A DNA stretch of 64,000 nt from Pedobacter schmidteae (lineage in GTDB: Bacteria > Bacteroidota > Bacteroidia > Sphingobacteriales > Sphingobacteriaceae), in NCBI GenBank assembly GCA_945901155.1, contig CAMDKO010000001.1, forward strand, positions 32,948-96,947, given 5' to 3'. Shown here in pieces: positions 46,667 through 49,098 of this stretch. How positions within the stretch are numbered: position 1 is the stretch's first letter; every line of letters begins with the position of its first letter. The translations under genes were made by a program, and so were the position numbers. The notes below the pieces were generated by a model that was not told where the DNA came from, did no database searches, and saw only the letters and a program-made list of their open reading frames with translations.

Positions 46667-47584
46667 CTATTGTAGGCGTATACCTCTTAAAAATTCGTCG
46701 ATTTTCATTTTCTTTTTACCTTCTAATTGCAATTCTAGAATAGAAATAAAGCCATCAGCACAGGCAAATTGAAGAGTCGCTTTATGGTCGGTTTGAAAAC
46801 TTCCCGTTTCTAATGTATGTTTTGAATAGTTTACTTCGGCTTGGAAGATCTTCAATGTTTTTTCCTGAAAAAGACAAAAAGCAGCAGGATAGGGGCTGAG
46901 CCCTCTAATATGGTTATATATGGTCATAGCCGGTTGATTCCAGTTGATCTGACAATCTTCCCTGAAAATTTTAGGAGCTGATTTTAAAGTCTCTCCTTTG
47001 TTAATATCCTGTGGAATTTCTTTATAATCACTTAATTCAATTGCTTTTACTGTTTTTACAAGGAGTTTTGCGCCAACAATCATTAATTTATCATGCAAAT
47101 CACCAGCCGTATCTTTTTCCTCGATATTTACCTTCTCAGAAAATAAGATATCGCCAGTATCAATCTCCTGCTTCAGTAAGAATGTACTCACCCCGCTTTC
47201 TTTTTCACCATTAATTATAGCCCAGTTTATGGGTGCAGCACCCCTGTATTGTGGAAGGAGAGATCCATGAAGATTTATAGTACCCTTTACAGGCATATTC
47301 CATATAATTTCAGGTAACATTCTGAAGGCAACTACAACCTGAAGGTCTGCATTTAATGACCGTAATTCTTGAATGAATTCAGGATCCTTTAATTTAACAG
47401 GCTGGAGTATTTTTAGTCCCTTTTCTACTGCAAATTGCTTTACTGCAGACTCATTGATCTTTTGACCCCTGCCTGCTGGTTTATCAGGAGCTGTTATGAC
47501 TCCAACTAGGTCAAAACCTGCTTCTAATAATGCATTCAAAGATGCTACAGCAAAATCGGGGGTACCCATGAATACTATTTTCAT
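46667..47584 (-). CDS. fmt: Methionyl-tRNA formyltransferase
   Basis: VFMGTPDFAVASLNALLEAG, DKPAGRGQK, NLHGSLLPQYRGAAPINWAIINGE. Confidence 0.96.
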   Translation of the reverse strand: MKIVFMGTPDFAVASLNALLEAGFDLVGVITAPDKPAGRGQKINESAVKQFAVEKGLKILQPVKLKDPEFIQELRSLNADLQVVVAFRMLPEIIWNMPVKGTINLHGSLLPQYRGAAPINWAIINGEKESGVSTFLLKQEIDTGDILFSEKVNIEEKDTAGDLHDKLMIVGAKLLVKTVKAIELSDYKEIPQDINKGETLKSAPKIFREDCQINWNQPAMTIYNHIRGLSPYPAAFCLFQEKTLKIFQAEVNYSKHTLETGSFQTDHKATLQFACADGFISILELQLEGKKKMKIDEFLRGIRLQ

Positions 47585-47587
47585 ATT

Positions 47588-47830
47588 GAGATGTTAGATA
47601 TGAGATGTTAGATATGAGATGTTAGATATGAGATGTTAGATATGAGATGTTAGATATGAGATATGAGATTTGAGATATGAGGTATGAGGTACGATGTATG
47701 AGGGATGATGATTTCCGATCTCCGGCTTCATACTTCCGACCTCCTGCTTCAGGCCTCCGACCTCCTGGTTCCTACTTCCTGCTTCCTGCTTCCTACTTCC
47801 TACTTCCGACCTCCTGCTTCCTACTTCCTT
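47588..47830. repeat. Composite heptanucleotide tandem array (GAGATAT-type then CTTCCTA-type units)
   Basis: 47588-47713 reads as 18 consecutive 7-mers (gagatgt tagatat x5, then gagatat gagattt gagatat gaggtat gaggtac gatgtat gagggat gatgatt). 47712-47830 reads as 17 7-mers (cttccta, cttcctg, cttccga, cctcctg and similar). Confidence 0.95.
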
Positions 47831-47832
47831 TT

Positions 47833-49098
47833 CTATTGATACAATAAATACTTTTTCCTCATTAACTTGTATTTTGATAAGCCGGGTTCCCAGCTTTGGC
47901 GGATATCTTCTTCTGATTTTCCGGCAATGATCTGCTGTTTCAAGTCATATGAACCTGCTAGTTTGTCGAAATTGCCCATTTGATTACTTTGCTTGAAGTC
48001 AAAGAATTTATCTTTGTATGGGTATGCATTATACAATTCTATTAACCAGCTCAAATTAATTTCACCTTCTTTGCGGATCTTATTGGTATTATATTGGCGT
48101 AGATCTATTCCATAGCATTCTTTATTCATATGCAAGGGAGTTTCGCTCATGCCTTTAATACCTTTAGGAACAAATGAAAATTTATATTTCCCTTTTAGGT
48201 CAGGATTTCCCAGAATTGTGAATGGAAAATAGGTGCCACGGCCCTGGCTAATAATAGTTCCTTCAAATAAACAAAGGGATGGATACAGTAAAATAGACTG
48301 TGCAGTATTCAAATTAGGTGATGGCTTAACTGGTAATATATAAGGCATAGTATGATTATAATTGGCATTCTTGATCACCTTAATCTTGCACTTTACCTTA
48401 TTTGCAAGCCACTCTTCGCCATTTAGCATCTGAGCATATTCAGCAATGGTAAGCCCGTGTGTAATAGGAATAGGATTTATTCCGATCCCTGACTTCAATT
48501 TTGGATCCAGAATGGGTCCATCAACATAAAAACCATTTGGGTTTGGACGATCTAGGATAAGTAATTCTTTATCATTGTCTGCACAAGCTTCCATAACATG
48601 TTGAAGTGTGTTTATATAGGTATAAAACCTTACCCCAACATCTTGGATGTCATAAATCATCAGATCTATATCTGCAAGATCTTCTTTAGTCGGTTTATTA
48701 TGTTTACCGTATAACGATATTGCAGGTATACCAGTTTTTGCATCAAAGCTATCATCTACATGAATTCCTGCACTTGCATCACCGCGAAAACCATGTTCAG
48801 GGCCAAATATTTTTACTATTTTAACACCCAGAGCTAATAAACTATCTACAACTGTAGTGCTTCCAATAACAGAAGTCGGATTTACAACCATTCCTATCCG
48901 TTTTCCTTTCAGATAAGGAAGGTAAAGTTCTGTTTGCTCTGCTCCGGTACGTAGTTTGCCACGAACTTTGTCGATACTTTCAATTTTAATATTTCTGGGA
49001 TCAGGAACCGGATTTCTGCCTGTTTGTATCTGCTGCGCTGATGATCTGTAGGCAATTAAAGTAAATACTGCTATAATTAAATATTTAAAACGGAACAT
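47833..49098 (-). CDS. DUF1343 / NamZ-like exo-beta-N-acetylmuramidase family protein
   Basis: RIGMVVNPTSVIGSTTVVDSLLALGVKIVKIFGPEHGFRGDASAG, DIQDVGVRFYTYI, LDRPNPNG. Confidence 0.92.
   Translation of the reverse strand: MFRFKYLIIAVFTLIAYRSSAQQIQTGRNPVPDPRNIKIESIDKVRGKLRTGAEQTELYLPYLKGKRIGMVVNPTSVIGSTTVVDSLLALGVKIVKIFGPEHGFRGDASAGIHVDDSFDAKTGIPAISLYGKHNKPTKEDLADIDLMIYDIQDVGVRFYTYINTLQHVMEACADNDKELLILDRPNPNGFYVDGPILDPKLKSGIGINPIPITHGLTIAEYAQMLNGEEWLANKVKCKIKVIKNANYNHTMPYILPVKPSPNLNTAQSILLYPSLCLFEGTIISQGRGTYFPFTILGNPDLKGKYKFSFVPKGIKGMSETPLHMNKECYGIDLRQYNTNKIRKEGEINLSWLIELYNAYPYKDKFFDFKQSNQMGNFDKLAGSYDLKQQIIAGKSEEDIRQSWEPGLSKYKLMRKKYLLYQ

Follow-up and report, generated by a model that had tools for sequence, protein, structure and literature searches.

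The composite heptanucleotide array in the namZ-fmt spacer of this Pedobacter genome consists of two boundary-anchored arrays that meet, and is not a special element. Both belong to a genome-wide population of heptad arrays, in which period 7 dominates, the number of units turns over among related genomes, and the strand facing a gene boundary nearly always has the same polarity. We believe, with reasonable though far from full confidence, that these arrays have grown by slippage and, less firmly, that their polarity at gene boundaries may derive from selection on translation.

The features of the spacer within the window, the whole stretch of 64,000 nucleotides analysed, are collected in Table 1. 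Identity between positions 7 nt apart is 172/241 = 0.71, with 0.76 at lag 14 and 0.70 at lag 21, all other lags giving 0.19–0.34; in 20,000 shuffles, carried out within halves, the lag-7 matches never exceeded 105, against the 172 of the real sequence. Across 47587-47829, Tandem Repeats Finder calls a series of arrays that overlap, with periods 14, 7, 21, 14 and 7. On the plus strand the start-side array, or block A, contains 40 G and 1 C, while the stop-side array, or block B, contains 51 C and 14 G. These figures bear out the first-pass annotation, which had described a spacer almost entirely of period 7, a strong strand asymmetry and five exact copies of the 14-mer GAGATGT-TAGATAT: a count returns the same five, all within the start-side array.

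Table 1. Genes and heptad arrays at the namZ-fmt locus (window coordinates)
Feature	Position	Strand	Basis or description
fmt, methionyl-tRNA formyltransferase	46667..47584	-	ORF; Pfam Formyl_trans_N/C PF00551, PF02911
namZ, exo-beta-N-acetylmuramidase	47833..49098	-	ORF; Pfam NamZ_N/C PF07075, PF20732
namZ-fmt spacer, 248 bp, heptad array almost throughout	47585..47832	.	
Start-side array, ends 3 nt before fmt ATG	47588..47713	-	C-rich, G-poor on fmt sense strand
Stop-side array, begins 3-4 nt past namZ stop	47712..47830	-	G-rich on namZ sense strand

The start-side heptads are ATATCTC, ACATCTC and ATATCTA on the minus strand (GAGATGT, TAGATAT and GAGATAT on the plus strand); those of the stop-side array are GGAAGTA, GGAAGCA and GGAGGTC on the minus strand (CTTCCTA etc. 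on the plus strand). Read in the sense direction, the namZ stop codon is thus followed by G-rich heptads (GGAAGTA/GGAAGCA/GGAGGTC), then by C-rich ones (ACCTCAT/ATATCTC/ACATCTC) and finally by the fmt ATG: this succession of a G-rich and a C-rich block is what arrays extending inward from both genes of a tandem pair would produce. The tandem units of 7 nt, present in at least two copies, place the array among the dispersed intergenic heptanucleotide tandem repeats of the LSSR/STRR type; the spacer is a solidly supported case of this known type, with a polarity that looks general. CRISPR was ruled out by inspection, the 7-nt units being without unique spacers.

Similar arrays are abundant in the same genome. 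In the assembly (2.74 Mb, 191 contigs) 32 places resemble the namZ-fmt array, and the heptad-pair pattern GAGATNTGAGATNT gives 90 matches, while its reversed control gives 4. When 984 kb of three congeneric genomes were scanned without bias for periods from 4 to 30, a strict criterion yielded 56 arrays of period 7; all periods other than multiples of 7 together gave 14 calls. In this census, made up of sampled stretches and pattern searches, arrays are mainly intergenic and spread over many loci, just 2 of 228 raw calls lying inside ORFs. Heptad families are many (GAGATAT, TAAGTTA, CAGTTAT, AAAGCTG, CTTGGTT and TGAAGTC, among others), and several often adjoin each other. When 50 distinct heptads were aligned with free rotation and strand, they yielded the consensus NANYTRA, with 4.62 bits versus 4.01 (sd 0.07) for shuffled letters, a figure to be read cautiously, since related heptad families are not independent. 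Such a grammar is unexpected from pure slippage of random seeds; descent among related families would give it. Some arrays were seen near contig ends (contigs C111, C134 and C124 of the own genome, G000), so that contigs may tend to end at arrays and the count may be too low.

Relatives carry similar arrays too. The nearest named genomes by fmt identity are Sphingobacteriaceae, namely a MAG labelled Sphingobacterium thalpophilum (73%) and Pedobacter species (65–71%), and the GAGATNT pattern has matches in 42 of 60 related genomes, with counts from 0 to 117 within the genus. The fmt spacer contains arrays in most congeners, which led us to reject an assembly artefact, and lacks them in several. 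By eye, the G-rich then C-rich order recurs in seven genomes (G018, G010, G008, G021, G013, G009, G001), other heptad families occupy the spacer in five (G003, G019, G011, G004, G014), and some further congeners have no array there. In the four closest genomes, including the own one, the fmt spacer measures 248, 210, 257 and 116 bp, and the 14-mer is present in 5, 2, 1 and 0 copies in G000 (own), G018, G003 and G001, respectively. At orthologous spacers elsewhere, compared between two close species, arrays were found in 23 of 24 cases, with length unchanged in just 3 of 24, and in some of them (L045, L053, L044) the heptad family has been replaced altogether. The number of units thus varies among related genomes, all the length differences, judged from assembled sequence, being between species.

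Such changes of copy number and length among close genomes fit slippage with turnover, and the comparison of species favours the slippage-type expansion that the first-pass annotation had listed among possible origins, while the one-off slippage relic it had also envisaged, with no similar arrays elsewhere and a fixed length, does not agree with arrays occurring genome-wide and varying in length. Units of 7 nt have been tied to polymerase slippage by Mrazek, as cited in PMC4679880. Replication slippage would accordingly be the generator of the arrays, which may gain or lose whole heptads or heptad pairs as strands slip or short stretches are locally duplicated in tandem; genes would not tolerate them in their coding sequence, and they would therefore accumulate in spacers, until they reach the gene boundaries.

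The first-pass annotation had also put forward a mobile element. A dispersed element of the REP or MITE type could account for composites that recur, such as the three tandem copies with a AATTGTGCAATC core at L040 or the doubled composite of G003 (L243). Common ends or target-site duplications were not noticed in an unsystematic look, and sites are shared by orthology, as in the 23 spacers just mentioned, while the heptad family differs from site to site; we give this explanation hardly any credence. At L040:2385-2648 (contig C4 of G000), each of the three composites is made of AAAGCTA heptads, the AATTGTGCAATC core and ATCTCAT heptads, and the spacer measures 569 bp in G003 versus 279 bp in the own genome. 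A convergent spacer, L072:1139-1522, holds about three tandem copies of another composite, of GAACCAA-type and CTTCAGA-type heptads.

The most general property of the arrays is their orientation with respect to genes. Of 48 arrays lying within 20 nt of a stop codon, 44 have a sense strand in which G outnumbers C; of 25 equally close to a start codon, 24 have one in which C outnumbers G. Overall, 68 boundary arrays follow this polarity and 5 oppose it (p = 3e-15), in a set where genes were called from ORFs, starts overlapping an array were shifted to the next ATG, one group of arrays had been chosen for containing GAGATNT, and orthology may link some of the arrays from different genomes. Farther than 20 nt from a boundary the ratio falls to 34 versus 23 (near versus far, Fisher p = 7e-6). 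The polarity holds for every type of gene pair, with 27:2 and 18:1 in tandem, 17:2 in convergent and 6:0 in divergent pairs. A second script, handling gene boundaries differently, found it in 80 of 88 arrays, among them 11 of the 13 that came from a genome of a different family, and in 32 of 34 when two unselected genomes were taken alone. Orientation was measured by purine content and then by GC skew, the latter being the stronger predictor; array-free spacers feature no purine skew (0.506, 0.499). A test of orientation based on a consensus matrix was dropped, because it did not keep the two strands of the GAGATAT family apart and included arrays that overlap. Neighbouring arrays, as expected from two filled ends, are G-rich then C-rich in 35 cases and in the reverse order in 12, and the abutting of two families, which had seemed unusual in the window, turns out to be the commoner arrangement.

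A pairing of this kind calls to mind a single RNA hairpin with the two arrays as its arms, which would terminate transcription or give structure to a leader, and a structured or regulatory leader had indeed been proposed for the namZ-fmt spacer. The minus strand has one long rod as its minimum-energy structure, a few spacers (L224, L219, L055) have clearly matched arms, and in two sister species, G017 (L166) and G002 (L158), the same spacer features, by eye, ordinary terminator-like hairpins and no heptads. The rod, however, is no better than the folds of dinucleotide shuffles (z = 0.19), and over the 35 G-rich/C-rich pairs permuted partners were as complementary as the real ones in 4008 of 5000 permutations. 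Single arrays, moreover, keep the polarity without any partner (36 of 42). In the namZ-fmt spacer a search for terminator-like sites found none, Rfam returned no match for the array, and neither a stable hairpin with a U tract nor a resemblance to an RNA family, the marks of an intrinsic terminator or a structured RNA, was detected. L039 even has a separate terminator-like hairpin between its two arrays. Altogether, we regard the hairpin explanation, and with it the proposed leader, as very unlikely. The order of features at L039:2361-2573 is a stop codon, a G-rich array, the perfect hairpin CAAAGTTCTGC TTCG GCAGAACTTTG, a C-rich array, the promoter-like TACTTTTG and a start codon; the hairpin is retained in G003 and G018.

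Of the causes considered, selection on translation fits the polarity best, though weakly, and may find partial support in the codon content of the arrays. Boundary arrays would survive, or start, almost solely in one polarity, with a sense strand that is G-rich past the stop and C-rich and G-poor ahead of the start. The strand preceding a start would thus be free of ATG, GTG and TTG and of G-rich runs similar to Shine-Dalgarno sequences, the strand following a stop would supply further stop codons, and a dedicated function need not be assumed. The sense strand of start-side arrays has no ATG in 46 of 51 cases, while the opposite strand has one in 29 of 51; stop-adjacent arrays contain stop codons in the sense direction in 45 of 48. 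Array and stop codon overlap in 31 of the 49 stop-side cases, so that here the rule may partly follow from definition: wherever an array introduces a stop, the gene ends. The heptads contain stop codons at about the rate that their composition predicts (0.62 versus 0.57, z = 1.3), which counts against the translational reading and led us to reject heptads designed around a stop. Even so, in 12–14 of 49 cases a later stop shares the phase of the stop that ends the gene, versus 8.5% at other offsets.

The same polarity is known from other repeats. In Xanthomonas and Nostoc, the quadruplex-forming heptamer repeats GGGAATC and GGGGA(C/T)T (Rehm 2015, PMC4692102) have their G-rich strand as the coding one after stops and as the non-coding one before starts, precisely as found here. 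Unlike those repeats, the namZ-fmt array does not contain runs of at least three G in at least four units, and a three-tetrad motif occurs in just 1 of 130 arrays: the polarity rule hence needs an explanation other than the quadruplex, which we rejected as its general reason. In a congener (G010), GGGGAAT heptads at L222:18373-18426 resemble the Xanthomonas and Nostoc repeats.

A C-rich strand entering genes might also serve as a fence that loads Rho, in the manner of rut sites, against read-through and antisense transcription. The strand reading into the gene is C-rich and G-poor at both ends, by the same 68 to 5, and the fmt leader has 40 C and 1 G in 126 nt. The fmt array, however, abuts the start codon, so that the Rho site would be part of the fmt mRNA itself, and Nostoc repeats share the polarity (PMC4692102), although cyanobacteria are without Rho (PMC13289151). 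We therefore hold a Rho fence to be improbable.

Other heptanucleotide repeats invite comparison. TAACTGA direct repeats, found in marine Beggiatoaceae, cyanobacteria and some Bacteroidetes, have been proposed as binding sites for an RNA-binding translational regulator (MacGregor 2015, PMC4679880). Like them, the present arrays are intergenic, often lie a few nucleotides from a start codon and directly upstream of it, and keep one orientation. TAACTGA/CAACTGA arrays occur in the own genome as well, with 41 matches, and TAACTGA fits the NANYTRA consensus; the namZ-fmt heptads (ATATCTC / GGAAGTA) are not the TAACTGA unit itself. By analogy, start-side arrays might be sites for such a regulator, with ribosomal protein S1 and cold-shock proteins as examples; their single orientation directly before starts (24 of 25) and the presence of TAACTGA-type arrays would suggest this. 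In contrast to the TAACTGA system, dozens of heptad families coexist here, and arrays following stops are at least as common as those preceding starts. The family at one locus differs, moreover, between close species, both in the replaced spacers mentioned above and at fmt, where several congeners have no array at all, and a role of this kind seems to us unlikely. In G055 the reversed control of the TAACTGA-type pattern gave 10 matches, and this genome seems to have a different heptad family, ARTCAAY.

Long simple sequence repeats and the heptanucleotide repeats of cyanobacteria (Mrazek 2007; Calothrix), as cited in PMC4679880 and PMC4692102, share with the present arrays the dominance of period 7 and slippage as proposed origin; as described in those two papers, they come with no rule of polarity that covers AT-rich heptads of Bacteroidota. 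Translation-level selection acting on arrays generated by slippage remains the reading that we prefer.

Polarity had earlier been described, in Xanthomonas and Nostoc, for quadruplex-forming repeats. To our knowledge, observations of bacterial heptanucleotide repeats go back decades without agreement on a function, and we know of nobody who has explained the polarity of the arrays. Finding the same polarity at both gene ends for AT-rich heptads, which are almost devoid of three-tetrad motifs, removes quadruplexes as its general reason, and boundary polarity becomes a simple rule, testable in any genome. It is conceivable, though rather doubtful, that genes in unrelated bacterial phyla are flanked at both ends by heptad arrays whose GC skew has a set polarity, G-rich on leaving and C-rich on entering the gene, whatever the heptad sequence. 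If so, such bracketing would point to a general and unrecognised process at gene boundaries, rather than to quadruplexes or a particular regulator, for which a fence linked to transcription or translation, or a mechanism of expansion specific to boundaries, would be candidates.
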